From NCBI GenBank assembly GCA_029865965.1, contig JARXAJ010000082.1, forward strand, positions 1-42,257: 42,257 bases of DNA. The letters are read 5' to 3'. Of the stretch, positions 7,580-27,213 are shown one piece after another (positions within the stretch are counted from its first letter, which is position 1; every line of letters begins with the position of its first letter). Origin of the DNA: Aquabacterium sp. GTDB lineage: Bacteria > Pseudomonadota > Gammaproteobacteria > Burkholderiales > Burkholderiaceae_C. Below the pieces are notes generated by a model. The model was not told the DNA's origin, did not search any database, and was given only the letters and a program-made list of their open reading frames with translations. Position numbers and translations under genes: made by a program.

Positions 7580-7583
7580 ATTG

Positions 7584-8499: not shown

Positions 8500-8507
8500 A
8501 CGCGCAG

Positions 8508-10341: not shown

Positions 10342-10377
10342 GGCGGGATGCAAGAGGTCGAAGTTGCGAGGGATTCA

Positions 10378-10391
10378 TGATAACGATTTCT
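10378..10391. promoter_or_regulatory. LacI-2-type operator before lacI-2
   Basis: TGATAACGATTTCT fits TGnnAnCGnTnnCA except for the last base. It overlaps the candidate -10 box of lacI-2, which would allow autorepression. Confidence 0.5.
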
Positions 10392-10567
10392 TCTCGCTTG
10401 GAGCTTTCTGCGGCGACGGGCGTACTCGCGTGTCCTGCGCGCTGAGGCCGCCGGCCTGCCTTGTCCTTGCAGCAGGCCTGCAATCCTGCTGTCCATCGCC
10501 CTAGGGGTTTCACGGAGGACCCGCATCTGCGCTTGACATGGCTGTGACCATTGCGCCAGACTTGACG

Positions 10568-10581
10568 TGAAATCGTTGCCA
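10568..10581 (+). promoter_or_regulatory. LacI-2-type operator, distal glk site
   Basis: TGAAATCGTTGCCA fits the partly palindromic pattern TGnnAnCGnTnnCA. The same 14 bases occur at 11990-12003 and, inverted, at 10756-10769. A TTGACG box directly precedes it. Confidence 0.6.
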
Positions 10582-10755
10582 AATCAGCCCAAGTGACGCG
10601 CAATCTGCCAAGCCTGATCGAGGCCCCGCCCAGGGTACATGCACCGGACGGGTCGGCCGTGCGCGCCCACCTCGCTGCAACCCTTGCGTCGCTCTTGCGC
10701 CAACGGGTCGCATGGTGCTCGCGTCATGTCTGCCTTGTCGGCTGGCGATCATGCG

Positions 10756-10769
10756 TGGCAACGATTTCA
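10756..10769 (-). promoter_or_regulatory. LacI-2-type operator, proximal glk site (inverted)
   Basis: TGGCAACGATTTCA is the exact reverse complement of the site at 10568-10581. The centres are 188 bases apart, so a tetrameric or looping regulator could use both. Confidence 0.6.
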
Positions 10770-10830
10770 TGTTTCGGCCGCATGGCACCCGGTGGCGGCT
10801 GCGCCTGAGTTGCCCGGGGACACCATCCAG

Positions 10831-11823
10831 ATGACCGCGCGAACCAGTCCACGGCCCTATCCACGCTTGCTCGCCGACGTCGGGGGCACCAACGTGCGCC
10901 TGGCCATGCAGGGCCAGGTTGATGGCCCGCTGCAGCATGTCGGCAGCTATGCCTGCGCCAGCTATCCTGGCCTGCTGGAAGCCATCCGCCACCACTTGGC
11001 GGTCGAGACCCTGGACTGTCCGCGCTGGGGTGCGATCGGCATCGCCACGGCCATCACTGGCGATGTGGTGCGGATGACCAACCACCCCTGGTCGTTCTCG
11101 ATCCGCGAGTTGGAAGCCTCGCTGGGCATGGAGCAGTTGATGGTGCTGAACGACTTCTCAGCGCTTGCCATGTCCTTGCCAGCCTTGCGCGAAGACGAGC
11201 GCTGGCAGATCGGCGGGGGGGCTCCCATCGCCAGAGCGCCGATGGCACTGATCGGCCCGGGAACCGGCCTGGGCGTTTCGGGCCTGGTGCCCGCCCTGTC
11301 TGGCGCAGGCATGGTGCCTATCGCAGGCGAGGGCGGACACGTCACGCTGAGTTCGTTCAACAACGAAGAGCGCGCTGCGCTGGAAATTCTGCACTGGCGA
11401 TATGGGCACGCATCGGCTGAGCGGGCGCTGTCAGGGCCCGGACTCGAGAATCTCTACATGGCGCTTGGGCAGGTGCGGGGCGGCCATGTGCGCGAACTGG
11501 CCGCACACGAAGTGACCGCTGCGGCCCAAGCGACGCGCGATCCGCTCGCGACAGACACCCTCGAACTCTTCTCCAGCCTTCTTGGCAATGTGGCGGGCAA
11601 CCTGGCGCTCACGCTTGGCGCCAGGGGAGGCGTCTACGTCGGCGGCGGAATCGTGCAGTGGTTGGACAAGCACTTCAATGCAGCGCGCTTTCGGCAGAGC
11701 TTCGAGGCCAAGGGCCGATTTCGCGACTTCCTGTCCCAGATTCCAAGCTACATCATCCCCAGCACGGAACAGGCGGCCCTCAAGGGTGCAAGCCTCGCGC
11801 TCGACGCAGGATTGGCCCGGTGA
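10831..11823 (+). CDS. glk: Glucokinase
   Basis: 330 residues; phosphorylates glucose with ATP in the cytoplasm. Motifs of the Glk family: N-terminal phosphate-binding LLADVGGTNVRLAM, VLNDFSALAMSLP (catalytic Asp), IGPGTGLGVSGL, and EGGHVTLSSFNNEE, then GGVYVGGGIVQW near the C-terminus. The frame is open to 10639, but the family start is the ATG at 10831. It stands alone between two operator-bearing regions and probably belongs to the LacI-2 regulon, handling glucose released by the GH1, GH5 and GH88 enzymes. Confidence 0.95.
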   Translation: MTARTSPRPYPRLLADVGGTNVRLAMQGQVDGPLQHVGSYACASYPGLLEAIRHHLAVETLDCPRWGAIGIATAITGDVVRMTNHPWSFSIRELEASLGMEQLMVLNDFSALAMSLPALREDERWQIGGGAPIARAPMALIGPGTGLGVSGLVPALSGAGMVPIAGEGGHVTLSSFNNEERAALEILHWRYGHASAERALSGPGLENLYMALGQVRGGHVRELAAHEVTAAAQATRDPLATDTLELFSSLLGNVAGNLALTLGARGGVYVGGGIVQWLDKHFNAARFRQSFEAKGRFRDFLSQIPSYIIPSTEQAALKGASLALDAGLAR

Positions 11824-11989
11824 TGCAGGGGTTGTTCCATCTCCAAGGGGCATCACCCACCGGTGTTGCCTGGGCCGCTGGCGCGTTCCGCACCCGGAGC
11901 GGCCTCACTGCCACCCGCCCGGCCTGGGACTTCTACCAAGTGCGTGCCATTTCGCTTGACGCCTCACAGGCGGGTTGGCAAACTAATCA

Positions 11990-12003
11990 TGAAATCGTTG
12001 CCA
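11990..12003 (+). promoter_or_regulatory. LacI-2-type operator, distal receptor-operon site
   Basis: TGAAATCGTTGCCA is identical to the site at 10568-10581; the identity extends to CATGAAATCGTTGCCAC when compared with the inverted glk site. It lies about 430 bases before the receptor start codon. Confidence 0.6.
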
Positions 12004-12173
12004 CACTTGGTCGCCATCATGACCCGGTGAGCACGAGGGCGAAACGCCTCGCCGATGTTCGACCCATTTCTGACGGGAAATCTCGCAACCCGGGTTTGCC
12101 CGCCTCGTGCGCTGCCACTGCAGGGATGCTTTGCGCGGAAACAGTCGAGATGAATCCTCTTCTCGACTTGTTA

Positions 12174-12187
12174 TGAAAACGATTTCT
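12174..12187. promoter_or_regulatory. LacI-2-type operator, proximal receptor-operon site
   Basis: TGAAAACGATTTCT is the most symmetrical member of the set (GAAA-A-CG-A-TTTC). It fits between a possible -35 TTGTTA and -10 TTCAAT. Confidence 0.55.
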
Positions 12188-12420
12188 CATTCAATGAACC
12201 CACCTCGCAATGCGTCGTCAACCGATCCAGCAGGCGTGATGAACCAGCGCACGACGCAATTCACCATCGTCGCCCCCATCCCGCAGGCACCCACCTGAGT
12301 CGGCGTCATCGCATGTCATCGGCGCGCGCAACAGCAACCGCCCGACGTTCGACGGCGCGCCAAGTCACCGGCAAGGCACCAGCGAGTGCCCGCCACCCAT
12401 CACCGACAGGAGACAAGAAA

Positions 12421-15400
12421 ATGGCAAGTGCAAAGAAGACGCTGATAGCGACTGCGATCGCGCAACTGGGTTTGATCTCTGGCGGCTCCGTCTGGGCTCA
12501 GACACCGGCAGCCCCGAGCCAGCCACAGAAGAAGGAGGAAGCCGCGCAGGTGACGGTGACTGGCCAGCGGGCGGCCATGCAGTCGGCCCAGAAGGTCAAG
12601 CAAGAAGCAGACGAGATCGTCGACTCGATCAGTGCCGACGACATCGGCAAGCTGCCGGATCGGTCCGTCATCGAGGTGCTGCAGCGCATCGTCGGCGCGA
12701 CGCTCGATCGGTCCATGACCAATGATCCTCAGCACTTCTCCGTCGAAGGCAACAGCATTGCCATCCGCGGCCTGAGCTACGTGCGGTCCGAAATGAACGG
12801 GCGTGACTCGTTCTCAGCAAATGGCGGCCGGGCCTTGAACTTCGAAGACGTGCCGCCCGAACTGCTGTCGCGGGTGGACGTCTACAAGAATCCTTCGGCG
12901 TCGCAGATCGAAGGCGGCATCAGTGGCCTGGTCGACCTGAGGACCGCGCTGCCCTTCGACTACAAGGGCTTCAAGGGCGCCCTGTCCTTCGACACCAGCT
13001 ACTCCAAGCTCCGGGGCGGCAAGGGCTCCAACTCTGGCTCCTTGCTCTTGTCCGATCGGTGGTCGACGCGCTTCGGCGAGATTGGCCTGCTGGTCGACCT
13101 GGCCAGGTCAGACAGCGCGACCCGTGCCGATCAGGTCAAGGTGGGTGCCATGTACCCGCACGACGAACTGGCGCCGGGCAAGACGGTCTGGGTCCCCAAG
13201 GGTGCGATGTGGCGCAGCCAGGATCTGGACCGCGAACGGGGTGGCCAGTACCTTGCACTGCAATGGCGGCCGAACGCGGACATCACGAACACCCTGACCT
13301 ACTTCAGGTCCGACTACCAGATCAACTGGTCCGAGCGCTTCATGGCGATGGAGCACAACTCGCCCTTCACCATGAAGGTGGCCGATGGTGTCTACGACGA
13401 GAACGGCATCTTCAAGAGCGGAACACTCTCAGACCCCAACTCCAACGGCATCAACCACAACCCGGCGCACCGCGTTGAAAGCCGAGACTCCTCGACCAAG
13501 GACCTCGCCTGGAAGTTCGATTGGAAGTTCTCCCCGCGTCTGAAACTGAGTTCGGACCTGCAAGTGATCGAGGCCAGGACCGCCGGCTTCGCATCCGAAA
13601 TCGCAACCGGTCACCAACTACAGAGGCAGAGCCTGGACCTGACGGGCTCAGTTCCCAAGCTGATCTTCGACCAGACCGATCTGGCGCAACTGGCAGACCC
13701 CAACAAGCACTACTGGGCCTACACGATGGACCATCAGGACCGGTCCACCGCCAAGAGCAAAGCCTGGAAGGGTGACCTCGAGTATTCCCTCGACGATCCG
13801 GTGCTCCACAAACTCCAGTTCGGCCTGCGCTTCAATGACCGTCAGTCGAGCATCACGAATGAGGTCCCCAGCTACAACTGGCAGGGCGTGACGCAACCCT
13901 GGATGCTGGGCTGGAACATTTCAGGCCTGGCATATCTCGGAGACCCGCGCTTCGCGGCGCCGGGCGCGACGAGCACCCATGCGTTCAAGAACTTCTTCGG
14001 CGGCAAGATTGCCGCGCCGCCCGGGATCTTCGCCACGCAGGCCTTTCTTCGCGACGTCAAGAATTCTTACGATCAACTCCACAACTACCACAACATCCTG
14101 TGTGAGGAACAGAAGGCCGCGAACGGATGGGGTGACTGCACGCAATGGGGCACGCCCGGCTACCAGCGTACAGCCTTGTTCGGCAGCGACCCTTCTGGCC
14201 GCAACGACGTGGATGAGAAGACCCAGGCCTTCTACTCGCAGCTGAAGTTCGGGTTTGACGACTGGAAGTTCCCGGTCGACGGCAATGTCGGCATTCGCTA
14301 CATCAACACCAAGACCAAGGCTGCTGGCTACACCGTGTTCTCGGCCAGTGGAACCAACTTCCCGCCAGGCGTTCCGGTTGGCGGCTTGCCGGTCCCGAAC
14401 ATTCCCAACTTTGCCAAGGCCCAGAACTACGAGCACACGTACCACAACCTGCTGCCCAGCCTGAACCTGCGCATGAAGGCGGGCAAGGATCTGCAGTTCC
14501 GCTTCGCCTATGCAGAAGCGGTGTCCCGACCTGATTTCTCGCAGTTGCAGGGCTACACCACCCTCAAACAGGACGTGAAGACGACGACTGACCAAGCCAC
14601 TGGGGCCATCACCGTCCAGAGCGTGAACCTGACCGGAGAGTCCGAAGGCAACCCGCTGCTGAAGCCCATCACTTCGAAGCAGGTTGACCTGACGGCTGAG
14701 TGGTACTTTGCGAAGGCGGGCTCGCTGACGGTTGCAGCCTTCGACAAGAGGCTGAAGGACATCATCGTGACGCAGTCGCGCAGCTATGTGATTCCGGACG
14801 TCAACGGAGCGCCGCAGACCTTCTCGGTGACCTCCCCGGTCAATGGCGCCAGCGGAACCGCAAGGGGCTTCGAGGTGGCCTACCAGCAGTTCTACGAAAA
14901 CCTGCCCGACTGGGCGCGTGGCTTCGGTGTGCAGGCGAGCTATACCTTTGTCGAGAGCAAACGCAAGCTGTACAACCCGGTCAACGCAGCCTACTGCTCG
15001 GGCGGCGCGGGCAACAGTGACAACTTCAACCGTTGGAACAACGGTTGCGACACCGACGGACGGACCTTCAGCGGCCTGCCGCTCACGGGGCTGTCACGCA
15101 ACACGATCAACCTGGCCCTCATGTACGAGCAGGGGCCACTTTCGGCCCGACTGGCATACAACTGGCGCTCGAAGTATCTGCAAGGCATCCGGAACTCATT
15201 CGGAACGCTCTTCAGTGACGGCAAGGACACCAACCCGGCCAGCCCGAACTTCGGCGCCACCAACCTGAACTACGCGCTGCCGCTGTGGGCCGCCGCGTAT
15301 GGGCAAGTCGATGCGTCGGTGTTCTACAAGTTCGCCAACAACGTGTCGGTGGGTGTCGAAGTGCAGAACCTTACCGACTCGGTGTTCAAGCAGCAGATGC

Positions 15401-15480
15401 AGCAGCACGTCGGCATGATCGACCACGCCTGGATCTCGTCCGGACCGCGCTACAGCCTCTCTGCGCGTTACACCTTCTAG
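12421..15480 (+). CDS. TonB-dependent receptor (TIGR01782-like, glycan uptake)
   Basis: 1019-residue outer-membrane receptor. The start at 12421 is set by AGGAGA at 12408-12413 and begins a signal peptide (MASAKKTLIATAIAQLG, ending near SVWAQ). The block QVTVTGQRAAMQSAQKVK, then IVDSISADDIGKLPDRSV and LQRIVGATLDR is the plug-domain signature of the TonB-receptor group first described in Xanthomonas and Caulobacter, whose members often import plant or algal oligosaccharides. The chain ends in RYSLSARYTF, with the terminal phenylalanine needed for barrel assembly. It is the first gene of the lyase-halogenase operon, with two operator sites upstream. An in-frame ATG at 12313 would add 36 residues before the signal peptide and is unlikely. 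Confidence 0.95.
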   Translation: MASAKKTLIATAIAQLGLISGGSVWAQTPAAPSQPQKKEEAAQVTVTGQRAAMQSAQKVKQEADEIVDSISADDIGKLPDRSVIEVLQRIVGATLDRSMTNDPQHFSVEGNSIAIRGLSYVRSEMNGRDSFSANGGRALNFEDVPPELLSRVDVYKNPSASQIEGGISGLVDLRTALPFDYKGFKGALSFDTSYSKLRGGKGSNSGSLLLSDRWSTRFGEIGLLVDLARSDSATRADQVKVGAMYPHDELAPGKTVWVPKGAMWRSQDLDRERGGQYLALQWRPNADITNTLTYFRSDYQINWSERFMAMEHNSPFTMKVADGVYDENGIFKSGTLSDPNSNGINHNPAHRVESRDSSTKDLAWKFDWKFSPRLKLSSDLQVIEARTAGFASEIATGHQLQRQSLDLTGSVPKLIFDQTDLAQLADPNKHYWAYTMDHQDRSTAKSKAWKGDLEYSLDDPVLHKLQFGLRFNDRQSSITNEVPSYNWQGVTQPWMLGWNISGLAYLGDPRFAAPGATSTHAFKNFFGGKIAAPPGIFATQAFLRDVKNSYDQLHNYHNILCEEQKAANGWGDCTQWGTPGYQRTALFGSDPSGRNDVDEKTQAFYSQLKFGFDDWKFPVDGNVGIRYINTKTKAAGYTVFSASGTNFPPGVPVGGLPVPNIPNFAKAQNYEHTYHNLLPSLNLRMKAGKDLQFRFAYAEAVSRPDFSQLQGYTTLKQDVKTTTDQATGAITVQSVNLTGESEGNPLLKPITSKQVDLTAEWYFAKAGSLTVAAFDKRLKDIIVTQSRSYVIPDVNGAPQTFSVTSPVNGASGTARGFEVAYQQFYENLPDWARGFGVQASYTFVESKRKLYNPVNAAYCSGGAGNSDNFNRWNNGCDTDGRTFSGLPLTGLSRNTINLALMYEQGPLSARLAYNWRSKYLQGIRNSFGTLFSDGKDTNPASPNFGATNLNYALPLWAAAYGQVDASVFYKFANNVSVGVEVQNLTDSVFKQQMQQHVGMIDHAWISSGPRYSLSARYTF

Positions 15481-15491
15481 GACCAGCAGAG

Positions 15492-16685
15492 ATGCGCACA
15501 AGGCCAGGGTCGACCGTCGACCGCAAGGTGGGAATGGCACTGCCCTTCCTGCAGTTGGCCCTCGCTTGTGTGCTTCTCCTGCCTTTGGGCAGCACCTCTG
15601 GTTGGGCGCAAACCTCCATCGGCTTCGTCCACCCAGGCACTGTCAACGGCAAGGCAGAGCTCGACAGGGTGAAGCAGGAGATCAAGAAGGCACCGGATCA
15701 GTGGAGCAAGACCGGCAGGTTCGGGCCTCTGTTCGAGTTGGCCACGCCCTACACAAGAAATCGAGCACCAGGCAACACCGGGTCAGACGAGGGCGACGCC
15801 AAGCACGATGCCAGGAAGGCCTATGCGAATGCGCTGGCCTGGTACTACACCGACGACCCCCGATACGCCCAGAACGCCATGGCGGTGTTCGACGTCTGGA
15901 CCAAGACCTTTGCGGGTTATCTCGTCGAGCCTGGCGTCAGCGGACAGTCGCAGTTGAATGCCGGATGGATCGGCGCGCTGATGGGCTCGGCGGCCGAGGT
16001 GCTGGGCAGCTACAAAGGCTGGAACGACCAACAGCGCACCGATGTCAAGCACATGTTCGCCACCAAGTTCTATCCCGCCTTGCAGCAGGAGAGCACATGG
16101 AACGGCAACGTGGACCTGACCCAGATCGACGCCTTGATCAACATCGCCGTGTTCAACGAGAACAAGGCCTGGTTTGAAGAAGCCAAGCTGCGGCTGAAGC
16201 GGCGCAATCCGAGATTCTTCTACATGCCGACGGACGTGGGCGTGAACCGCACCAACCCGTCCTGGTTCAACCCGACCCAGTGGGTAGCCGGCCTCACGCA
16301 GGAAACCTGCCGCACCAATGCCAGGCCACCGAACGACAACGGTCACCACACGCAGTACGGCCTGGCCTCTGCCCTGCGCGCGGCCGAGGTGGCATGGAAT
16401 CAGAAGGATGACAGCATCTACGCCGACAACAAGGACCGCTATGTCGCAGCCATGGAACTGCTGGCCAGGCAGGTGAACACCGGCGACATGCAGGGCACCT
16501 GCGCCGACCCGGTCACCACCAGGAGCCTGTTCGATACCTGGGCCATCGGATACAACCACTACCACCGCCGATGGGGCATCGACCTTCCACACACCAGGGC
16601 ATTGCTCGCCAGCACAGCGCGCCCCAAACGGTCGGACTGGAACATCTTCTTCGAGAGCCTGACGCATGGCTCGGCCGCGCCATGA
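15492..16685 (+). CDS. Alginate-lyase-superfamily polysaccharide lyase (PL38-like)
   Basis: 397 residues with an N-terminal signal peptide (hydrophobic stretch about 15-33, cleavage near SGWAQ), so periplasmic or secreted. The body is an (alpha/alpha) toroid of the alginate_lyase type: ARKAYANALAWYYTDDPRYA, then STWNGNVDLTQIDALINIAV (201-220) and ETCRTNARPPNDNGHHTQYG (271-290), where the Asn/His residues are candidates for catalysis. This family cleaves uronic acid polymers by beta-elimination and leaves 4,5-unsaturated uronyl ends. PL38 is my best placement from sequence patterns; PL5-like is the alternative. It lies 12 bases after the receptor gene; GH88 in the same operon would act on its products. 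An ATG at 15534 has a better-placed AAGG but loses the charged n-region. Confidence 0.75.
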   Translation: MRTRPGSTVDRKVGMALPFLQLALACVLLLPLGSTSGWAQTSIGFVHPGTVNGKAELDRVKQEIKKAPDQWSKTGRFGPLFELATPYTRNRAPGNTGSDEGDAKHDARKAYANALAWYYTDDPRYAQNAMAVFDVWTKTFAGYLVEPGVSGQSQLNAGWIGALMGSAAEVLGSYKGWNDQQRTDVKHMFATKFYPALQQESTWNGNVDLTQIDALINIAVFNENKAWFEEAKLRLKRRNPRFFYMPTDVGVNRTNPSWFNPTQWVAGLTQETCRTNARPPNDNGHHTQYGLASALRAAEVAWNQKDDSIYADNKDRYVAAMELLARQVNTGDMQGTCADPVTTRSLFDTWAIGYNHYHRRWGIDLPHTRALLASTARPKRSDWNIFFESLTHGSAAP

Positions 16686-18247
16686 CGGCGGCCGCTGCAC
16701 AACCTTCGGGCCCTGGCGCTGCGCCCATCCGCAAGATCGTCATCGTGGGTGGCGGCTCGGCCGGCTGGATGACGGCGGCACCCTTGAGCCAGCGCCTGGC
16801 CAAGCACTGCGAGATCGTGCTGGTCGAATCACCCGAGATCGGCACGATCGGGGTGGGCGAGGCGACCTTGCCGACCATCCGCTACTACAACAGGGCACTG
16901 GGTCTGGACGGCGCCGATTTCGTTCGCCGAACCCAGGCGACCTTCAAGCTCGGCATCGAGTTTCGAGACTGGGGCCACATCGGAAACCGCTTCTTTCACG
17001 GCTTCGGTGACTATGGCCCGACCATCGAGACCCGCTCGCCCTACATGCACTGGCTGCGCCTGGTTCGTTCCGGCGCGACCCAGCGGCCACTGGAGGACTT
17101 CTGCGTCGCGACGGTGATGGCCCGGCACCAGCGTTTCACACCGCCGGCGGGCGACCAACCCTCGGCAAGCAACGCGTTCTCCTACGGCTTCCACTTTGAC
17201 GCCGGTCTCTACGCGGCCTATCTGCGCGACTACGCCATGCAGCGCGGCGTCCAGCGCATCGAGGCCATGATCGATGGTGTGGAGCTGCATCCCGAGACAG
17301 GCTTCATCACCGCGCTGCGCCTGCGCGATGGACGCCGGATCGACGGCGAACTGTTCATCGATTGTTCCGGATTCCGCGGCCTGCTGATCCAGGGCGCCAT
17401 GCAGTCGGATTACGAAGACTGGAGCACACAGCTGCCTTGCAACAGCGCCCTGGCGGTGCCCAGCGCCAGGGTGGACAAGCTGACGCCGTTCACCAGATCC
17501 ACGGCCCATCGTGCTGGTTGGCAATGGCGTATTCCGCTGCAGCACCGCACCGGCAACGGCCATGTCTACTGCAACGGGTTCACGACGGACGACGAGGCTG
17601 CAAAGACCCTGCTCGCAGGACTGGACGGGCGCCCGCTCGACGACCCCCGTCAACTGCGCTTCACGACCGGACGCAGACGGCGCCAGTGGGTCAAGAACTG
17701 TGTGGCCATTGGCTTGTCGGCCGGGTTTCTGGAACCGCTCGAATCGACCAGCCTCAATCTCATTGAAACGGCGATCGGGACACTGATTCAGAACTTTCCT
17801 GACTCGACATTCAATCCAGGATTGAGTGATGAGTTCAACCGCCTGCTGGCGGCGCGGTACGAGTCGGTCCGCGACTTCATCATCCTTCACTACAAGCTCA
17901 CCCAGCGTTCGGACTCCGAGTTCTGGCGCTACTGCGCTGACATCAAACTGCCCGACAGCCTGCGCCATCAGATCGAGTTGTTCAAGCAAACCGGCCGCGT
18001 CGTGGTGTACGAGCCGAACGGGTTCATGGAATCCTCGTTCGTCGCCATCATGACGGGACTTGGAGTTCATCCTGCGAGCTACGACCCATTCGTCGATCTG
18101 ATGGACCTGGGTCGACTGCGCCAGCACTTCGATGGTGTGCACAGGGCGATCGCCATGACCGTGCGCGACATGCCTGATCACACCGAGTACATCGCCCGCC
18201 ATGTCGCAGCCCCCGCTGTGCCGCATCCAGCCGGCACGGTGACATGA
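16682..18247 (+). CDS. Tryptophan-halogenase-like FAD-dependent enzyme
   Basis: 521 residues. The flavin-dependent halogenase hallmarks are all visible: GGGSAG (23-28) for FAD, the lysine expected to carry or position the chlorinating species (K89 in RTQATFK), WQWRIP (280-285, the WxWxIP motif), and the Glu-Ser pair in EPLESTS (E354-S355). The family oxidises halide with FADH2 and oxygen and attacks an indole or similar ring; it needs a separate flavin reductase, which is not encoded here. The start overlaps the lyase stop and the end overlaps the transporter start by four bases each. Relatives occur next to TonB-dependent receptors in Caulobacter, Xanthomonas and Brevundimonas, but their role in glycan loci is not known to me. 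Substrate unknown. Confidence 0.9.
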   Translation: MTAAAAQPSGPGAAPIRKIVIVGGGSAGWMTAAPLSQRLAKHCEIVLVESPEIGTIGVGEATLPTIRYYNRALGLDGADFVRRTQATFKLGIEFRDWGHIGNRFFHGFGDYGPTIETRSPYMHWLRLVRSGATQRPLEDFCVATVMARHQRFTPPAGDQPSASNAFSYGFHFDAGLYAAYLRDYAMQRGVQRIEAMIDGVELHPETGFITALRLRDGRRIDGELFIDCSGFRGLLIQGAMQSDYEDWSTQLPCNSALAVPSARVDKLTPFTRSTAHRAGWQWRIPLQHRTGNGHVYCNGFTTDDEAAKTLLAGLDGRPLDDPRQLRFTTGRRRRQWVKNCVAIGLSAGFLEPLESTSLNLIETAIGTLIQNFPDSTFNPGLSDEFNRLLAARYESVRDFIILHYKLTQRSDSEFWRYCADIKLPDSLRHQIELFKQTGRVVVYEPNGFMESSFVAIMTGLGVHPASYDPFVDLMDLGRLRQHFDGVHRAIAMTVRDMPDHTEYIARHVAAPAVPHPAGTVT

Positions 18248-19611
18248 GCACATCTGCCGTGACGAAGACTTCAGCGCCCACCTGGACGGCGGGCACGCTG
18301 AAGTACAGCGCTGCCGGGCTCGCGCTGCTGTTCTTCTGGCTGCTCTTCGGTGACTTCGCGTTCATGTTGCGCGAACGTTCGGCCGCGCCGACTGCGCAGC
18401 TGATGCTGAAGGCGTACCAGGCGTCGGACTTCGCCACCGGGATCTTCCTGCTGACGATCCCCCAGGCAATCATCTTCTTCCTGGGGCCTGTGATCAGCTA
18501 CTGGAGCGATCGCCATCGCGGCCGCTGGGGCCGGCGCATTCCGTTTCTGCTGTGGCCGACTCCGATCACGTCGCTGTCCATGATCGGCCTGGGCTACAGC
18601 CCGTTCATCGGAAAGGCCCTGCACCAATGGCTGGGCCGAAGCCCAGGCACCGAGCACCTGACCATCCTGATGGTCATGGTGTTGTTCTGGACGGTCTTCG
18701 AGATCGGCGTCGTGATCTCCAACTCGGTCTTCAACGGCCTGATCAACGACGTGGTTCCGCGCGCCTGGCTGGGGCGCTTCTACGGCATGTTCCGGGCCGT
18801 CGGCTTGGCCGTCGGCGTGATTTTCAACTACCAGGTCATCGGACATGTCGAAGGCAACTTCGCCCTGGTCTTCACCTGCATCGGCCTGATCTACGGGGTG
18901 GGCTTCTCGATCATGTGCCTCAAGGTGAAGGAGGGCGCGTACCCGCCGCCCCCCGAACGGGAACCAGGCAAGAGCCTGTTTCGGATCGCCATCACCGACT
19001 ACTACCGTGACTGCTTGTCGCGGCCCTACTACCTGTGGGTGTTCTGCTTCATCGCCCTGGGCACGGTCACCTACCTGCCCGTCAACACGTTTGCCATCTT
19101 TGCCGCCAAGAGCTTCGGCATGAGCATGGAGTTGTACGGCAAGTACATGGTCGCCACGTTCACTTGCTCGTTCTTGCTGGCCGTGCCCATCGGCTGGCTG
19201 GTCGACCGCTTCCATCCCATTCGTGTCGCGCAGGTGGCGCTGGTGCTCTACGGCAGCTTGATGCTGGTCGCCTACTTTCTGCTGCGCGATCAGGCTTCCT
19301 TCGGCGTCGCGCTGCTCGTGCATGGCGTCGTCTCCGGCATCTACTGGACCGGCACGGCCGCCATCGGGCAGATGCTGTACCCGCAGATGAAGTTTGCCCA
19401 GTTCGGGGCCGCAGGCGGGCTGATCACGGCAGGCTTCAGCATGTGCCTGGGGCCTGTGCTCGGGTTGCTGCTCGATGCCCTGGGCAATGACTACCGGTAC
19501 ACCTTCCTGGCTGGCAGCGTGCTGGCATTCGCATCTGTCGGGCTGGGTTGGGTGGTCTATCGGAAGTGGCAACAGCACGGTGGCCAGCACCACTACGTCG
19601 CGCCCGCCTGA
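18244..19611 (+). CDS. MFS sugar transporter, GPH/sucrose-symporter type
   Basis: 455 residues with about twelve hydrophobic segments. The loop SDRHRGRWGRRIPFLL after the second or third span is the conserved cytoplasmic motif of glycoside-pentoside-hexuronide and sucrose-type cation symporters. It would carry the periplasmic products of the lyase across the inner membrane, giving the second block its own uptake route separate from the ABC transporter. The ATG overlaps the halogenase stop codon. Substrate is inferred from context: unsaturated uronate-containing oligosaccharides or monomers. Confidence 0.88.
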   Translation: MSTSAVTKTSAPTWTAGTLKYSAAGLALLFFWLLFGDFAFMLRERSAAPTAQLMLKAYQASDFATGIFLLTIPQAIIFFLGPVISYWSDRHRGRWGRRIPFLLWPTPITSLSMIGLGYSPFIGKALHQWLGRSPGTEHLTILMVMVLFWTVFEIGVVISNSVFNGLINDVVPRAWLGRFYGMFRAVGLAVGVIFNYQVIGHVEGNFALVFTCIGLIYGVGFSIMCLKVKEGAYPPPPEREPGKSLFRIAITDYYRDCLSRPYYLWVFCFIALGTVTYLPVNTFAIFAAKSFGMSMELYGKYMVATFTCSFLLAVPIGWLVDRFHPIRVAQVALVLYGSLMLVAYFLLRDQASFGVALLVHGVVSGIYWTGTAAIGQMLYPQMKFAQFGAAGGLITAGFSMCLGPVLGLLLDALGNDYRYTFLAGSVLAFASVGLGWVVYRKWQQHGGQHHYVAPA

Positions 19612-19659
19612 GCCCGCCCCCGTGCATGCGCCAAGCTCCATGAAGCATCACCGTCCCAC

Positions 19660-20130
19660 ATGACGACCCACACACTGAAGATCAACAATCAGAGCCGCAC
19701 CGTCGACGTGGCCGCTGACACGCCGCTGCTCTGGGTGCTTCGCGATCACCTGTCGCTGTTCGGAACCAAGTACGGTTGCGGGCTGGCGCAGTGCGGCGCC
19801 TGCACGGTGCATGTGGACGGCAAGGCAACACGGTCCTGCATGACGCCGGTGTCTGCGGTGGGCCAGCAAGCAGTCACCACGATCGAGGGGCTCGATGCCA
19901 ACAAGGCGCATCCGCTCCAGCGCGCCTGGTGTGAACTGGATGTGCCGCAATGCGGCTACTGCCAGGGCGGGCAGATCATGGCCGCCGCGGCCCTTCTGAA
20001 GCAGCATCCTTCGCCGACCGATGAACAGATCGATGTGGCCATGGCCGGGGTGCTGTGCCGTTGCGGCACCTATGTTCGCATCCGCGCGGCCATCAAGGAC
20101 GCCGCGGCCAAGATGGGAGGTCGCAAGTGA
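19660..20130 (+). CDS. Molybdenum hydroxylase small subunit, [2Fe-2S] (IorA type)
   Basis: 156 residues, full length for the family. Two iron-sulfur sites are complete: plant-ferredoxin-type C40, C45, C48 and C60 ([14 protein letters not shown]), and C98, C101, C133 and C135 (CGYCQGG and CRCGTY). It passes electrons from the molybdenum cofactor in the large subunit to an acceptor. There is no FAD subunit gene nearby, as expected for the isoquinoline 1-oxidoreductase/aldehyde dehydrogenase class, which donates to cytochromes. No signal peptide, so it is probably carried out together with the Tat-bearing large subunit. Its stop overlaps the GTG of the large subunit gene. Confidence 0.93.
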
Positions 20131-22949
20131 GGATGCCGGTCTCCAAGCCGCGCCGGCGGTTCCTGCAAGTCTCGGCGCTGGCTGGCGGTGGGCTGCTGCT
20201 GAGCCAGGTGCGCGCACAGTCGACCCGGCCGCAGGGCGAGACGTCGCCGCAGCGTGGCAAGGGCGCTTTCGCGCCGAGCCCGTTCATCCAGATCAGACCC
20301 GATGGCGCCGTCGTCCTGGTGGCCAAGATTCCCGAGCTGGGCCAGGGCGTGAAGACGACCCTGCCGATGATCCTGGCAGATGAAATGGGTGCGGACTTCC
20401 AGACCGTCCAGATCGAGTCTGGCGCGCTGGATCCCAGGTTCGGTTCGCAGGAGGCCGGCGGCAGCATGTCGGTCTTCGACAGCCATCAGCCGCTGCGCGA
20501 GGCCGGCGCCCTGGCACGCACGCTGCTGGTCCGGGCCGCCGCCGCTCAATGGTCTGTGCCGACCAAGGAGTGCAGCGCCGCAGACTCCAAGGTGACCCAC
20601 CAACCCACGGACCGATCGCTGACCTTCGGTGATCTGGCGTCCAGGGCTGCTGCCCTGCCCGTGCCTGCGCCGTCGGACATCGTCCTGAAAGAGCCGCGTG
20701 AACAGCGCCTGATCGGCCAGCGGATTGGCGGCGTTGACAACCAGGCCATCGTCACCGGGCAGCCCCTGTTTGGCATCGACCAGACGGCGCCCGGCATGGT
20801 GCACGCCGTCTACGTGAAGTGCCCAGCGTCAGGCGGCAAGGTCGCGTCCGCGAACCTCGACCACATCAAGCGGCTTCCCGGCATCGTCGACGCCTTCATC
20901 CTGGCGGGCACCGCAGACGCCTATGGACTGCTGCCTGGCGTGGCCATCGTCGGCAATTCAACCTGGGCCACATTCAAGGCGCAGGACGAGCTGCGTGTGA
21001 CCTGGGACTCCAGTGCGAAGCTTGGCCAGGACTCGGCGGCCTATGAGCGCCGTGCGGCGGAGCTTGGGGCCACGCAGGGCTCGAACGTGCGGAGTGTGGG
21101 CGACGTGGCCGCCGGCCTGCGCGCAGCAGCCAAGTCCATCTCGGCGGCCTACCACTACCCCTTCCTGCACCATGCGCCGCTGGAGCCCATGAATGCGCTG
21201 GCCATTCCGCTGCCCGATGGTGGAATGAAGATCGTTGCGCCCACCCAGTCTCCGCAGGACGCGCACAAGCTTGCAGCCAAGGTGCTGGACTTGCCCACAG
21301 GCAAGGTCGAGCTGCAGTTCATCCGCAGTGGCGGCGCGTTCGGCCGCCGGCTCGTCAACGACTTTGTGGCGGAAGCTGCTGCGATTGCCCAACGTGTCGG
21401 TCGGCCCGTGAAGCTGACCTGGCGCCGGGACAGTGACACCCAGCATGGCAAGTACCGGCCTGCAGGCTGGCACTTTCTGCAGGGCGGGCTCGACAGCGCG
21501 GGCAAGCCGATGGCTTGGCGCAATCACTTCGTAACCGTCGGCTTGAACAGCATATCGAGAGCCGGCACGTCCGCCGACATTGGTGGCAACGAGTTTCCCA
21601 GCCGTTTCTTGCCCAGCTTCCGGCTGGAGCGGTCCGTCCTCAGCGCCAACGTCCCGACCAACTGGTGGCGTGCACCGGGCGCCAATGGCTTCTCGTTCGT
21701 GTTCCAGAGCTTCATCGACGAATTGGCACATGCGGCGGGCAAGGATCCTCTGGAGTTCCGCTTGGCCATGCTGGGTGAGGACCGCGTCCTGGCGGGCACG
21801 GGGCGCTGGGACCCTGCGTTCGACACGGCGCGCATGAAGGCCGTGCTCAGGCTCGCGGCCGAGCACGCCGGCTGGGGTAGGCGCCTGACGGCCGGGTCCG
21901 GTCAAGGCATGGCCTTTCATTTCAGCCACCAGGGCTACGTGGCGGAAGTGGCGGAAGTCAGCGTCTCGCCAGAAGGCGTGCTCACCGTGAAGCGCGTCAC
22001 CGCAGCGGTGGACGTGGGGCCGATCATCAACCGCAGTGGTGCGGAAAGCCAGGTGCAGGGCTCGATCATGGATGGGTTGAGCGCCGCCTGGTTGCAGGAA
22101 ATCACGATCGCCGACGGGGCCGTGCAGCAGTCGAACTTCCACGACTTCTCCGTGCTGCGCATCGATGCCGCACCGAAGCAGGTGGACGTGCACTTCATCG
22201 AGACCAAGACCGCGCCGACTGGCCTGGGCGAGCCAGCCCTTCCCCCGGTGGCACCCGCCGTGTGCAACGCGATCTTTGCGGCGACCGGCATCCGCATTCG
22301 GCGCCTGCCGATTTCCAAGACAGACCTCCAGTGGGATCCCAGAAGAGTGAAAACATCGACTCTGCAAGGCGCCGACATCGGCGCACCACGGCTGCGCGGC
22401 GAAACCCAGCAGACGTCCACCGCAGTCCAGCTGCTGGCAGGCGGCGTCGACATATGGGGGGTGCGCGACGAAGGCCACTTCGCACATCTGCCCGTGGGCG
22501 GCGACTTCGAGATCAGCGCCCGCGTGGATTCGCTGGAAATGGCCGACCTCTACACCAAGGCCGGGATCATGTTCCGGTCATCGCTTGCCGATGGCTCGCC
22601 GCATGTCATGCTGTTTGCCTTCGGCAACAACGAGCCGCGCAACAAGAACAACGGCGGCCTGGAGTTCCAGTTCCGCCAGGATGAGGGGGGCCTGTGCGCG
22701 GCCATCTACCCGCCGCAGCCGCTGCCAGCCGAGCCCGACTTCCCCGTGGGCTTTCCACATGTGTGGCTGAAGCTGGTGCGAAGGGGCGACACCTTCACCG
22801 GCCTGTTCAGCCGCGACGGAACGACCTGGAAGACGTACAGCAACCACATCCAGAACCTGCCGCCAAGCGGGTTCCTCGGGCTGGCCGTCACCGCACACAA
22901 CGACACGCAACACGTGTCCGCAAGCTTCAGCCACCTGCTGGTGGGCTGA
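20127..22949 (+). CDS. Molybdenum hydroxylase large subunit (IorB type) fused to a C-terminal DUF1349 domain
   Basis: 940 residues. The start is the GTG at 20127: GGGAGG at 20115-20120 sits six bases upstream and GTGA overlaps the previous stop; the ATG at 20133 is the alternative. [15 protein letters not shown] is a Tat signal, so the enzyme is periplasmic. Residues to about 745 match IorB-type molybdenum cofactor subunits ([38 protein letters not shown] with the expected active-site E702). These oxidise N-heterocycles or aldehydes using water. From about 750 to the end is a domain resembling DUF1349, a concanavalin-like fold ([61 protein letters not shown]). The fusion suggests the enzyme is held on a glycan. 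Native substrate unknown; an aldose or sugar aldehyde is an inference. Confidence 0.9.
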
Positions 22950-23036
22950 ACGCACTGTCCACTGGCATGGCCACGGGCGTCGAGCTCCTGGCCGTGCCAT
23001 TGGCTTCAATGTCGAATCGCACTGAAAGTGAATGGC

Positions 23037-23768
23037 ATGGATCGATTGAAAGGCAAGTGGTCTCTGGTAACCGGCGCAAGCCGCGGCGTTGGTCGGCATG
23101 TCAGCGCAGGGCTGGCCAGGCTGGGGTCCAACCTGGTCTTGCACAGCAGAGACCTGGCCCACACCGAACAACTGGCGGTCGAGCTTCGAGCCCAGGGCGT
23201 GGGCGTGGCGTGCGTGGCCGGCGAACTCGCCGACCGGGCCCAGGTGGACGACATGTTGACGCAGGCCCTGCAGCAGGCGGGGCAGATCGACGTGGTCTAC
23301 AACAACGCGGCAATCATGACGCCGTTCCGCGAGAACTTCTTCGACATTCCTGCAGAGGACTATCGCCACAGCTTCGAGGTCAACGTCATCAGCCTGGCCC
23401 GCATCTGCCACCGGCTGGTGCCGCCCATGATTGCGCGGCGATGGGGGCGCGTCATCAATCTCACGTCGGGCATCCAGGATCAGCCCGAGTTGTCGGCGTA
23501 TTCGATCTCGAAGGCTGCGGTCGACAAGCTGGTGCGCGACTTCGCGCCCAAGCTGGCTGGCACCGGCGTGCAGATGAACCTGCTGGACCCTGGCTGGCTG
23601 CGCACCGACCTGGGCGGCCCCCGGGCCCCCAACGACCCGAGCGCCGTGCTGCCCGGTGCACTGGTGCCGGCGCTGCTAGACGACGGGGTCAGCGGCCGCT
23701 TCTTCCGTGCCCAGGACTACGCGGGCCTGTCGTTGACGGCGGCGGTCGACAAGGAGCGCAGCAAGTGA
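23037..23768 (+). CDS. Short-chain dehydrogenase/reductase
   Basis: 243 residues, a classical SDR. Visible: TGASRGVG (nucleotide binding), NNAAIM, the catalytic serine in INLTSGIQD and Tyr-Lys in AYSISKAAVDKL. It has no signal peptide. The ATG at 23037 fits the family N-terminus; a GTG at 23028 is in frame three codons upstream. The end overlaps the GTG of the GH88 gene, so the two are probably translated together. The substrate cannot be read from the sequence; a keto sugar or uronate intermediate from the same operon is plausible. It is not a second KduD, as the substrate-binding loops differ. Confidence 0.88.
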   Translation: MDRLKGKWSLVTGASRGVGRHVSAGLARLGSNLVLHSRDLAHTEQLAVELRAQGVGVACVAGELADRAQVDDMLTQALQQAGQIDVVYNNAAIMTPFRENFFDIPAEDYRHSFEVNVISLARICHRLVPPMIARRWGRVINLTSGIQDQPELSAYSISKAAVDKLVRDFAPKLAGTGVQMNLLDPGWLRTDLGGPRAPNDPSAVLPGALVPALLDDGVSGRFFRAQDYAGLSLTAAVDKERSK

Positions 23769-24943
23769 GCCGAAGTGCACCAGCCACCAGCGCCCTGGAT
23801 GGCATCGACATCGATGCCGCCGTGGCCAGCATGGCCCGCAAGCTGGCCCACTACGACGACCACCAACCCGACAAGTCGGCCTACCCGAACGAGGCCAAGG
23901 CCGATGTCTGGTCCACGGTGCCTGCGCCGGACTGGGTCAGCGGCTTCTACCCCGGCGCCCTGTGGTACGTCTATGAGTTCGCGATGCGCCGGCAGTGGCC
24001 CGATCAAGACCGTTGGCGCCAGCAGGCGCACATCTGGACGACCGGCCTGACGGAAGAACAGTTCACGACCACCAACCATGATCTGGGCTTCATGATCATG
24101 GACAGCTTCGGGCATGGCTATCGGCTGACCGGCGATCCGGCCTACAAGGCCGTCGTTCTCCAGGCGGCCGGGTCGCTGTCGAAGCGCTTCAGCGACACCG
24201 TCGGCCTGATCCGATCCTGGGGCGCCATCGACGACCCGGAAAACTTCGTCGTGATCATCGACAACATGATGAACCTGGAGTTGCTGGTCTGGGCATCGGA
24301 CAACGGTGGCCCGCAACGTTATCGCCAAGTCGCCACGCAGCACGCCGACCGCTCGTGCGTGGAGTTCTTCCGGCCCGACCAGAGCACCCACCACGTCATC
24401 GACTTCAACCCGCTGACCGGTGCGCTGAAGCGAAAGTACACGCACCAGGGTCTGGCCGACGAGAGCTGCTGGTCGCGGGGCCAGACCTGGGCCATCTACG
24501 GCTACGCGTACCTCTTCGAGGCCACCGGGGACCGGCGCTATCTGGCGCAGTCCGTCGCGGCCGCCGACTACTACCTGGCGCGCCTGCCGGCGGACCACGT
24601 GCCGCCATCGGACTTCGACAGCGGGCTCGCGGGCCTAGAACACAAGGATTCGAGTGCGGCCGCGCTGGCGTCTTGCGCCTTCTTCCGCCTCAGCCGCCTG
24701 TGCCCGGAGGCAGCCGACCAGGCCCGCTTCTGGCAGGCAGCTGTCAACGCGCTGAAGAGCCTGGTGCAGGCACCGTACTTTTCGTCGTCGCCCAGCCATG
24801 CCAGCGCACTGCGCTACCAGGCCCGAAACTTCCACGCAGACGCCAGCCATCGCCTTACCAACACCGGCCTGATCTTTGGCGACTATTTCCTGCTGGAAGC
24901 GCTGCTGACCTATGACAGCGCCATCGCGAATCACCACAAGTAG
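23765..24943 (+). CDS. GH88 unsaturated glucuronyl hydrolase
   Basis: 392 residues. GH88 enzymes remove the 4,5-unsaturated uronic acid from the non-reducing end of lyase products by hydrating the double bond; the released sugar rearranges to the KduI substrate. The two catalytic aspartates expected from the Bacillus enzyme are at D106 (TNHDLGFMIMDS) and D166 (IIDNMMNLELLVWA), 60 residues apart as in the family. DESCWSRGQTWAIYGYAYLF is a further family block. The start is the GTG at 23765: AAGGAG at 23751-23756 precedes it by eight bases and it overlaps the SDR stop. No signal peptide is visible, so it acts in the cytoplasm. It links the lyase to kduI-kduD. Confidence 0.93.
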   Translation: MSRSAPATSALDGIDIDAAVASMARKLAHYDDHQPDKSAYPNEAKADVWSTVPAPDWVSGFYPGALWYVYEFAMRRQWPDQDRWRQQAHIWTTGLTEEQFTTTNHDLGFMIMDSFGHGYRLTGDPAYKAVVLQAAGSLSKRFSDTVGLIRSWGAIDDPENFVVIIDNMMNLELLVWASDNGGPQRYRQVATQHADRSCVEFFRPDQSTHHVIDFNPLTGALKRKYTHQGLADESCWSRGQTWAIYGYAYLFEATGDRRYLAQSVAAADYYLARLPADHVPPSDFDSGLAGLEHKDSSAAALASCAFFRLSRLCPEAADQARFWQAAVNALKSLVQAPYFSSSPSHASALRYQARNFHADASHRLTNTGLIFGDYFLLEALLTYDSAIANHHK

Positions 24944-24955
24944 AGATCGCCCGAA

Positions 24956-25864
24956 ATGATCAAGAACGACGCTTCGAACGCTGCGATGCCCAGTTTGTCG
25001 CCCATGGTCTATGGCACCTGGCGGATGCTCGACGACAAGCCTTCGGTGCAGGACATCAATCGCCGCCTGAACCGTTGTGTCGAACTGGGCATCACGACCA
25101 TCGACACCGCAGAGATCTATGGCGGGTACCGGGTGGAGGCAGCACTCGGAAACGCCATGGCCCTCTCGCCCGGGCTGCGCGACAAGCTGGCCATCGTCAC
25201 GAAGGCGGGCATCTACGTGCCCAACGACCTGAGCCCGCAGCGCAAGGTGGGCTTCTACGACGCCTCGGCGGCACAACTCAGGCGCAGCGTCGAGCAATCT
25301 TTGCGGATGTTGGGCTGCGAGCAGATCGAGCTGTTTCTCGTGCACCGCCCTGACTGGCTGACGGGCGTCGAAGATACGGCGCAAGGGCTCAACCAGTTGC
25401 TGCAGGAAGGCAAGATCCGCATGGCGGGGGTGTCCAACTACACCGCCAGCCAGTTTGCGGCCCTGAACAGCTTCATGGGCGTGCCGCTGTACACCAACCA
25501 GGTCGAGTTCCACCTTCTGCGTATGGACCCTATGGTGGACGGCAGCTTCGACCAGTGCCAGCAACAACGGGTTCGGCCGATGGCCTGGAGCCCCCTGGCC
25601 GCAGGCCGACTCTTTGACGCGAACGAGCCTGCAGCGGTGCGGCTGGCCCAGGCCGCGGCAGTGTTGTCCCCGAAGTACGGTGGCGCCACATTGGAGCAGT
25701 TGGCCTACGCGTGGGTGATGGCCCATCCCAGCCGGCCCTACCCCGTGATCGGAACGAACAAGATCGACCGCATCGAGAGCGCCGTCAAGGCCCTGTCGGT
25801 CCGCCTTGAGCGGGAAGACTGGTTTGCGCTCTGGGTGGCGGCTCAGGGGCGGAACATCCCCTGA
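24956..25864 (+). CDS. Aldo/keto reductase (YdhF-like)
   Basis: 302 residues. The catalytic tetrad is complete: D50 and Y55 in TIDTAEIYGGY, K83 in VTKAGIY and H130 in FLVHRPD. The C-terminal NADPH-binding region (AWSPLAAGRLFD, then PVIGTNKIDRIESAV) is of the YdhF/AKR type. It would reduce an aldehyde or keto group with NADPH. The ATG lies 12 bases after the GH88 stop, so it belongs to the same operon. The role is unknown; reduction of a sugar acid intermediate fits the context. Confidence 0.9.
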   Translation: MIKNDASNAAMPSLSPMVYGTWRMLDDKPSVQDINRRLNRCVELGITTIDTAEIYGGYRVEAALGNAMALSPGLRDKLAIVTKAGIYVPNDLSPQRKVGFYDASAAQLRRSVEQSLRMLGCEQIELFLVHRPDWLTGVEDTAQGLNQLLQEGKIRMAGVSNYTASQFAALNSFMGVPLYTNQVEFHLLRMDPMVDGSFDQCQQQRVRPMAWSPLAAGRLFDANEPAAVRLAQAAAVLSPKYGGATLEQLAYAWVMAHPSRPYPVIGTNKIDRIESAVKALSVRLEREDWFALWVAAQGRNIP

Positions 25865-25980
25865 CGATCGAAGTGCACCGGGGGCGCTGACAGCCCGACG
25901 GGCGCACGAATCCAAGGTCTCCGCTGGCGGCGTCATCGACGGCGCTGGTGGCTCCATGACACTGCAAGGCGGTTTGCAAG

Positions 25981-27213
25981 ATGAAGACCTGGGCCTGTAC
26001 GCTGATCGCTTGTCTGCTGGTCGCACTCGCAACCCCGGCGGTGCGCGCTGCAGACACTGCCAAAGGGTCTGCAGGCTCAATCGCTGTGCGAGGCGAAGTC
26101 AGGAAGGTCAGCCATGACTTCCAGCTGAACATGCTCGATCCTGCCCTGTGGACCGTCGACACGGTCCATCTGGGCACCCGTCAATTGCAGATCGATGCTG
26201 ACCGGGACAGTGAAGCCACCGTCATTCGCCCGACTTGGTCTGTGAGCGATCTTGCGTCACCTGAAGCTGACATCCGCAATGTCGAGCACAGCCGCCTGCA
26301 CATCTACCAGACGATCAAGGCCAGCGATTGCACCCAGGCCGATGTCGAGTTCGAGATCCTGATTCCCATGGAGTACATCCGGGAGGGCAAGCTCAGGCTG
26401 GTGTTCTCGCTTCAGGCCGGCGCCAAGGGCGACTATCTGTTCAATGGCAAGACCTTCAGGATGAGCGACTTTTCCGGTGCGAACGGCCAGTATCAGCGCG
26501 TCCGGGTGAAGGCAGGCGAGGACTTCACGGACGCACCGTCGCCCAAGAAGCTGCGGGCCATCGAGCGGGTCAACTTCATCTTCCACCGCAACGGGTCGAT
26601 GGTGGCGGCGCCCATCCGGATCCGTCGTGTCACGATCGACCTGAACAGCGACCGCATCGTGCCGCCGCAACCTGATGCCAAGGTGATCAATCCGCGCTCA
26701 CAGTACGCGTTCAGATACGACACGGAGCCTGTCATCGCCGGTGTTGTCGCACGCACTTCCGACGAGACCATGGACATTGGCCGTCGATTGGATGATGCGT
26801 CATCAGGGCTACTGCTCACCCCCATGTGGTTGAAGAACCAGATGCCAGCAGGCCACTCCGGCAAGGTCTCGCTCGTGCAGCCTCTAGGCAGCATGCACGA
26901 CTTCGAGCGGTTCCAGATCAAGTACACGCTGAACATTCCCCGCGCCTACTTCAACGAGGGCAAGCTCGACCTCTACTTGTTCATCCAGGCCGGTGCCGAA
27001 GGCTTCCACCGATGGAGCGGATCGCAGCGCAGGCTGTCCTCTTTCGTGGCCAACGCGGACCGAGACGTGGTCCTGACACTGACCGAGCGTGACTTTGCAC
27101 AGCAGGGCAAGCAGCGCAACCAGATTGAGTTCGTCGGGCTGCAATTGATCCCGAACGGTTCAGCCTTGAACCAGCCGTTGCTCCTGAAAAGCATCGAGGT
27201 GCAACTTCCCTGA
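25981..27213 (+). CDS. Secreted protein of two homologous domains, function unknown
   Basis: 410 residues. A signal peptide (MKTWACTLIACLLVALATPA, cleavage near VRAAD) is followed by two similar halves of about 140 residues. In the first half (about 82-221) the core reads FEILIPMEYIREGKL and SLQAGAKG; in the second (about 280-409) YTLNIPRAYFNEGKL and FIQAGAEG, with an offset of about 190. The alternating hydrophobic pattern suggests beta-sandwich modules such as those that bind carbohydrate, but I recognise no named family and see no catalytic motif. It starts 116 bases after the aldo/keto reductase gene on the same strand and ends the accessory block. A glycan-binding or scaffold role is an inference. 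Confidence 0.75.
   Translation: MKTWACTLIACLLVALATPAVRAADTAKGSAGSIAVRGEVRKVSHDFQLNMLDPALWTVDTVHLGTRQLQIDADRDSEATVIRPTWSVSDLASPEADIRNVEHSRLHIYQTIKASDCTQADVEFEILIPMEYIREGKLRLVFSLQAGAKGDYLFNGKTFRMSDFSGANGQYQRVRVKAGEDFTDAPSPKKLRAIERVNFIFHRNGSMVAAPIRIRRVTIDLNSDRIVPPQPDAKVINPRSQYAFRYDTEPVIAGVVARTSDETMDIGRRLDDASSGLLLTPMWLKNQMPAGHSGKVSLVQPLGSMHDFERFQIKYTLNIPRAYFNEGKLDLYLFIQAGAEGFHRWSGSQRRLSSFVANADRDVVLTLTERDFAQQGKQRNQIEFVGLQLIPNGSALNQPLLLKSIEVQLP

Follow-up and report, generated by a model that had tools for sequence, protein, structure and literature searches.

Carbohydrate utilization containing TonB-dependent receptor (CUT) loci, as described for Xanthomonas and aquatic bacteria in PMC1790865, combine a TonB-dependent receptor (TBDR), an inner-membrane sugar transporter, degradative enzymes, and a sugar-type regulator. 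All of these components were found together in a 42,257-nucleotide stretch of Aquabacterium sp. DNA (contig JARXAJ010000082.1; hereafter, the window), which is contig C42 of a 4.46-Mb metagenome-type assembly (317 contigs, 88% complete). Relative to the loci described in PMC1790865, in which "halogenase" does not occur as a word, the window adds a uronate lyase/GH88 set, a PF04820 protein of the tryptophan-halogenase type, and an IorAB-type molybdenum hydroxylase. Growth on its cognate carbohydrate, and induction by it, would be predicted from its genes.

For the PF04820 protein, the closest solved structures were BrvH (PDB 6frl, 478.8 bits) and Xcc4156 (6y1w, 469.1 bits), both matched over nearly the full length. 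According to PMC5945002 and PMC7336383, these 52%-class relatives are flavin-dependent halogenases that prefer bromide and brominate indoles in vitro, and PMC7336383 states that the native substrates of BrvH-type halogenases are unknown. The window's IorAB resembles 8gy3-type IorAB and membrane aldehyde dehydrogenases in its iron-sulfur and molybdenum subunits with molybdenum-cofactor (MoCo) domains. It differs from the 8gy3-type enzymes by a DUF1349-like C-terminal tail, by its place in a putative uronate-glycan operon, and by the absence of a cytochrome-subunit gene from the run of genes.

We assign a probability of roughly 0.55 to the interpretation that the window holds a LacI-controlled, CUT-type locus for a uronate-containing glycan, built from a receptor-halogenase core, a lyase/GH88 set, and a recruited periplasmic aldehyde oxidase. 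The halogenase homologue and IorAB are best read as two unusual enzymes with separate histories.

Gene Order, Conservation, and Selection

Nine genes on the plus strand (12421–25864) encode, in order, a TBDR of the TIGR01782 type (12421–15480; 609.9 bits, cut-off 310), a putative secreted polysaccharide lyase (15492–16685, start possibly at 15534), the PF04820 protein (16682–18247), an MFS/GPH-type sugar symporter (18244–19611; PF13347, 63.7 bits), an IorA-type 2Fe-2S subunit (19660–20130), an IorB-type molybdenum subunit (20127–22949), a short-chain dehydrogenase/reductase (SDR; 23037–23768), a GH88 unsaturated glucuronyl hydrolase (23765–24943), and an aldo/keto reductase (AKR; 24956–25864; PF00248, 166 bits). 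Four-base overlaps occur at four junctions: lyase/halogenase and halogenase/symporter (both ATGA), and IorA/IorB and SDR/GH88 (both GTGA). The initial annotation of this DNA had correctly reported the receptor-lyase-symporter-GH88 chain, the gene order, and the overlaps. However, the symporter and IorA genes are separated by a 48-base gap, the IorB and SDR genes do not overlap, and the SDR and AKR genes also belong to the run. The end coordinate that it gave for the operon, 27213, is that of a gene for a secreted 410-residue protein and not of the GH88 gene.

Searching 84,980 species genomes with the lyase as query yielded 12 loci. In two of these, located in betaproteobacterial metagenome-assembled genomes (MAGs; L051 and L052), the same gene order was found with protein identities of 84–96%. 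Genes for GH1, KduI, KduD, LacI, TBDR, lyase, halogenase, symporter, IorA, and IorB are common to both; L051 runs on through the SDR and GH88 genes into the start of the AKR gene, and the L052 contig stops inside IorB. Values of dN/dS were 0.060–0.219 for all 13 genes compared with L051, and 0.069–0.237 for the 10 usable genes compared with L052, for which a first LacI row was dropped because the wrong paralogue had been aligned and for which the SDR and GH88 genes lie beyond the contig. No stops were present in the aligned frames of the retained comparisons. The overlaps lyase/halogenase, halogenase/symporter, and IorA/IorB are kept in both MAGs, and SDR/GH88 is kept in L051. Recurrence of order and overlaps in two other MAGs indicated more than chance. 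These results support the interpretation of the locus as a real, maintained, co-oriented unit, probably for a uronate-containing glycan. The initial annotation had claimed a conserved unit that includes the halogenase and IorAB, to be abandoned if both were absent from otherwise intact loci; in the two available relatives, of which L052 is cut inside IorB, both genes occupied the same place under purifying selection.

At the remaining 10 of the 12 lyase loci, no further gene of the unit was detected at 1e-5; six of these lie on short contigs (5–10 kb), and a view of 18–21 kb was available only for L053, L054, L057, and L060. The lyase occurred in one of 21 genomes of the genus and in one of 398 genomes of a phylum sample, in both cases the window's own, and GH88 relatives occurred in three of the 21 genus genomes, including the window's own, with identities of 35–36% for the other two. 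This scarcity of lyase and GH88 indicated that the whole locus is rare among the sampled kin.

The Halogenase Homologue and Its Association With TonB-Dependent Receptors

The PF04820 match (586.8 bits) spans positions 1–457 of the 458-position profile and is thus full length. The motifs GxGxxG (residue 23), WxWxIP (residue 280), and FLEPLESTS (residue 349) are intact, as is K89 in TFKLGI, the lysine for which PMC7336383 describes a catalytic role. The initial description of a complete tryptophan-halogenase-like enzyme was thereby confirmed. As in BrvH and two Xcc enzymes, a serine replaces glycine in the Fx.Px.Sx.G region (PMC7336383). No signal peptide was seen. Halogenating activity of BrvH and Xcc4156 has been shown in vitro, whereas that of the window protein, a BrvH-type flavin-dependent halogenase homologue, is predicted from its sequence.

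An unlikely but far from negligible alternative is that the PF04820 protein, instead of being a halogenase, resembles QhpG in its action and is a flavin monooxygenase that hydroxylates a peptide or protein. QhpG is a relative of PF04820 proteins, although the QhpG model scored 24.9 bits, far below its cut-off of 240, and the cupin-like, 2-oxoglutarate (2OG)-Fe(II) oxygenase, and SapC neighbors of other TBDR loci would suit such a role. The intact halogenase motifs argue against it, as does the bromination of indoles in vitro by BrvH and Xcc4156.

The genomic surroundings of halogenase relatives were analyzed in the phylum sample, in which 61 of 398 genomes, including the window's own, contained a relative at E 1e-60. 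In the 60 other genomes, 8 kb on each side of the best relative were searched by tblastn (1e-8) with the window's proteins and 13 others; some of these stretches are cut by contig ends. Stretches located 300 kb away in 17 of the 60 genomes served as controls. A TBDR was present within 8 kb of the halogenase relative in 46 of 60 genomes, compared with one of 17 controls (Fisher p 1.4e-7). These pairs were on the same strand in 38 of 46 cases and within 300 bases of each other in 27, and in 21 of 46 the TBDR gene lay directly upstream within 500 bases. Cupin-like and SapC proteins were each encoded in 14 of the 60 stretches and a 2OG oxygenase in two, while IorA or IorB was found in none (one of 17 controls). 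Sequence distances of halogenases and TBDRs were correlated (r 0.50), compared with permutation means of 0.00 for free and 0.17 for within-family permutation, and none of 2000 permutations reached the observed r. This correlation fits linked inheritance, without being proof of interaction.

Within the genus, 26 halogenase places were found in 11 of 21 genomes. For 20 of these, a TIGR01782 receptor is encoded no more than 8 kb away, and a further three adjoin a TBDR of a different type; no TBDR was found at the other three, two of which were compared with the TIGR01782 list only. Conversely, 16 of the 50 TIGR01782 places in the genus had a halogenase within 8 kb. The two nearest halogenases of the genus (62–63% identity), from two species, are paired with TBDRs that are 48–53% identical to that of the window, in a locus of xylose type. 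Both loci encode a xylose-isomerase-like protein beside the receptor-halogenase pair, together with a ROK regulator; in one of them (L202), the scan additionally showed a GH35/42-like protein, an AKR, and sugar ATP-binding cassette components. Matches to the lyase, GH88, or IorAB were absent from these xylose-type loci. The location of the pair in a xylose-type locus indicated that it serves a different sugar there and that the halogenase goes with the receptor. The operon thereby offers a natural comparison of how related receptor-halogenase pairs are used for different sugars, two of them within one genus.

A halogenase relative at E 1e-100 was present in 23 plasmid records. All six halogenase regions examined among these, which were not chosen at random, contained an annotated TBDR, and their neighboring glycosidases differed: GH68; GH43 and GH9; GH95 and alpha-N-acetylglucosaminidase; GH32 and amylosucrase; GH68; and GH16, GH3, and GH43. 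On a Niveispirillum cyanobacteriorum plasmid, four tryptophan-halogenase genes stand in series next to a TBDR gene (L046, 7021–13145).

The PF04820 protein would thus be a BrvH-type companion of sugar TBDRs, tied to the receptor rather than to the polymer. The recurrent position of BrvH-type genes beside sugar TBDRs makes the question of their native substrate testable. No title or abstract describing PF04820 genes beside sugar TBDRs was found in a literature search that covered few subscription journals, so that the link may already have been published.

A more far-reaching proposal, which we regard as speculative and rather doubtful, is that PF04820 enzymes of the BrvH type belong to an oxygenase module that accompanies sugar TBDRs and whose target is the receptor, a receptor-bound peptide, or a linked signal, and not the imported sugar. 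The window would then add a second, independent oxidative element, a lectin-tailed molybdenum hydroxylase acting on glycan aldehydes. If such a module exists, BrvH and other orphan brominases would gain a native role. In other loci, the module could also include the genes for cupin-like proteins, 2OG-Fe(II) oxygenases, and SapC. A set of TBDR, an optional second halogenase, SapC, cupin-like protein, and halogenase recurs in alphaproteobacterial and gammaproteobacterial-type sugar loci (L118, L123, L129, L130, L135–L138, L143, L144, L146, and L147).

One fixed tryptophan of the receptor was considered as a universal halogenation site. When 58 TBDRs linked to a halogenase were roughly aligned with 17 unlinked ones, the latter including receptors from genomes with halogenases elsewhere, the outcome spoke against it: no tryptophan column was near-invariant, and the only one exceeding 60% in either group was occupied in 35 of 58 linked and seven of 17 unlinked receptors.

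The IorAB-Type Molybdenum Hydroxylase

The two genes show the layout of IorAB-type enzymes, with a 2Fe-2S subunit (Fer2 and Fer2_2; PF00111 and PF01799) encoded next to a separate MoCo subunit (PF02738 and PF20256). Cysteine residues are present in IorA, and IorB contains the motifs GGAFG and GLGEP and a Tat-type RRRFL at residue 9. Against the large subunit of PDB 8gy3, IorB scored 260 bits (E 3.2e-76). From about residue 740 on, IorB consists of the DUF1349-like tail (PF07081, 3.1e-07).

IorB-type matches occurred in 110 of 150 genomes of the host family. None of the 30 best relatives among these had a TBDR, lyase, halogenase, or GH88 gene nearby. In all 30, the alignment ended by residue 760 of the 940 residues of IorB, and none shows a DUF1349-like tail. 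Among 397 plasmid records with IorB-type matches, none covered 80% of the query. The tail alone matched three of the 398 phylum genomes, including the window's own. In another Burkholderiales genome (G335), a tail-like module is part of an alginate-lyase-family protein with PF05426, F5/8-type, and DUF1349-like domains (L066, 9147–12005). That modules of this type accompany glycan enzymes elsewhere is the best hint, and a hint only, that IorAB works on a glycan. IorAB was found in no other glycan locus among the 60 halogenase and 30 IorB stretches to which this sampling was limited.

The abundance of IorAB-type enzymes in the host family, and the unrelated surroundings of the 30 best relatives, would also suit a chance insertion of a general enzyme for aldehyde detoxification or energy scavenging that has no tie to the glycan. 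We consider this a possibility to be reckoned with, albeit an improbable one. Coupling of the IorA and IorB genes by their GTGA/ATGA overlap, the shared location and the purifying selection across the three genomes, and the lectin-like tail that the 30 relatives lack all argue against it. We favor the interpretation that IorAB is a two-subunit periplasmic molybdenum hydroxylase that a single small lineage recruited into the locus. This enzyme, which bears a lectin-like tail, would most likely oxidize an aldehyde derived from the same glycan, either free reducing ends or released deoxy-uronate, and its electrons would pass to the respiratory chain. The operon thus supplies a candidate molybdenum oxidase that would act specifically on uronate oligosaccharides.

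The initial annotation had offered two ideas, of which oxidation of a sugar aldehyde appears the better one, for IorAB alone. The other, a joint function in which halogenase and molybdenum hydroxylase modify or remove aromatic groups on the glycan, is very improbable: both genes do occur together, in the same place, in both other genomes with the locus, but IorAB accompanies none of the 60 halogenase relatives, genes of this halogenase type are found next to TBDRs for unrelated sugars and, within the genus, in a xylose-type locus, the 30 best relatives of IorB are never near such loci, no aromatic-catabolic gene is among the annotated genes of the run, and a halogenase without visible signal peptide and an IorB with a Tat-type signal would work in different compartments. 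The recurrence of the halogenase in loci for other sugars that lack IorAB was the reason for rejecting an aromatic-decorated glycan as the common purpose.

Lyase, GH88, and the Proposed Pathway

The lyase matched PF05426 (34.3 bits, cut-off 22.2). Its structure model (pLDDT 70.4) matched PL5, PL17, and PL38 lyases in the PDB at 10–17% identity, and the fold matches were spread over PL5, PL17, PL38, and glycosaminoglycan lyases with TM-scores of about 0.5–0.6. With the PL5/PL38 alginate/mannuronate lyases 1qaz, 8bdq, and 3nfv it shares PF05426, an (alpha/alpha) helical barrel, and TM-scores in that range, whereas identity to them is just 12–17% and sequence-level E-values were never below 0.033, the best value obtained with a nine-sequence profile against the PDB. 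The modeled protein thus appears to fold like PL5/PL17/PL38 enzymes without joining any one of these families, and PL38 and PL5, named in the initial annotation, are candidate assignments.

Two of its relatives stand in different contexts. In L053 (9968–12193), a Cytophagaceae relative with a CBM9 domain and a Por-secretion tail has a hybrid two-component sensor as its neighbor, and neither GH88 nor a TBDR was matched in the surroundings. In a Thalassocella blandensis MAG (L060, 9650–11062), a relative that starts like a lipoprotein and contains a long serine-rich linker is encoded among housekeeping genes.

The GH88 protein matched eight PDB sequences, all of the unsaturated glucuronyl/chondroitin-disaccharide type (best match 3wiw, E 5.6e-56), while its score against PF07470 was 19.6 bits, below the cut-off of 26.6. 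It contains the motifs NHDLG at 104 and IIDNMMN at 164, whose aspartates we take to be catalytic. No signal peptide was seen, consistent with a cytoplasmic location. The SDR shares 26% identity with the window's KduD-like SDR and 92.6% with its own counterpart in L051. It had no PDB match at 1e-30, a threshold that leaves room for weaker relatives, and is possibly a reductase of the deoxy-uronate DEH (4-deoxy-L-erythro-5-hexoseulose uronate). KduI, of the 5-keto-4-deoxyuronate isomerase family (7570–8499, plus strand; PF04962, 116.8 bits), and the KduD-like SDR (plus strand, with 8499–9269 as the chosen reading and 187 bits against PF13561 for a longer frame, 8229–9269) are encoded upstream; both are also present in L051 and L052.

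In the proposed pathway, the receptor would take oligosaccharides into the periplasm, where the lyase may cut them to 4,5-unsaturated oligosaccharides. Following import of these products by the symporter, GH88 would remove the unsaturated uronate, and SDR, AKR, KduI, and KduD could convert the resulting deoxy-uronate to 2-keto-3-deoxygluconate (KDG).

Several observations weigh against this interpretation of the locus. The correlation of halogenase and TBDR distances can come from orthologous loci that were inherited whole, and the TBDR queries, taken from the window and from six loci chosen by their halogenase, may have favored linked receptors. For 14 of the 60 halogenase relatives, the 8-kb flanks gave no TBDR match; these include the closest relative of the set (66%, L097), whose neighbors are signaling genes and a GH9 gene. 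In the genus, 34 of the 50 TIGR01782 receptors had no listed halogenase within 8 kb, which indicated that TBDRs as such can function without the halogenase. No gene for a cytochrome or FAD subunit of IorAB is present in the operon. Finally, the tail alone scored 30.7 bits against PF07081 (DUF1349), below the Pfam cut-off of 32.4, so that of the IorB-DUF1349 label in the initial annotation a weak similarity stands and the tail is DUF1349-like at most.

Putative Regulatory Region and Flanking Genes

A LacI-type regulator, with an N-terminal LacI-type helix-turn-helix in its translation and 94–96% identity in L051 and L052, is encoded divergently from the receptor operon (9292–10353, minus strand). 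Two operator-like palindromes, GAAATCGTTGCC at 11991 and GAAAACGATTTC at 12175, lie 5' of the receptor gene (11990–12188, plus strand), and such palindromes are present 5' of the receptor in all three genomes. The palindrome pattern had six matches in the window, five of them at 10379–12186, compared with 0.90 expected; since the pattern was chosen after the site at 12175 had been seen, this excess is partly circular, whereas its conservation is not. No match was found at the internal junctions of the window's operon, and three two-mismatch matches in L051 lie inside genes. The arrangement suggests that the locus is controlled by the LacI protein.

The LacI and TBDR genes are separated in the window by a glucokinase-family gene (10639–11823) that is surrounded by operator-like sites, and no match to it was found in the corresponding gap of L051 and L052. 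Downstream of the AKR gene, the secreted 410-residue protein (25981–27213, plus strand) had no Pfam match, no PDB match better than E 0.43, and no relatives in 397 other genomes at E 1e-5, and its fold model was poor (mean pLDDT 37.7). The protein is a candidate member of the unit; the L051 contig ends before this position. A 52-residue piece on contig C52 of the same assembly is 62% identical to its C-terminus.

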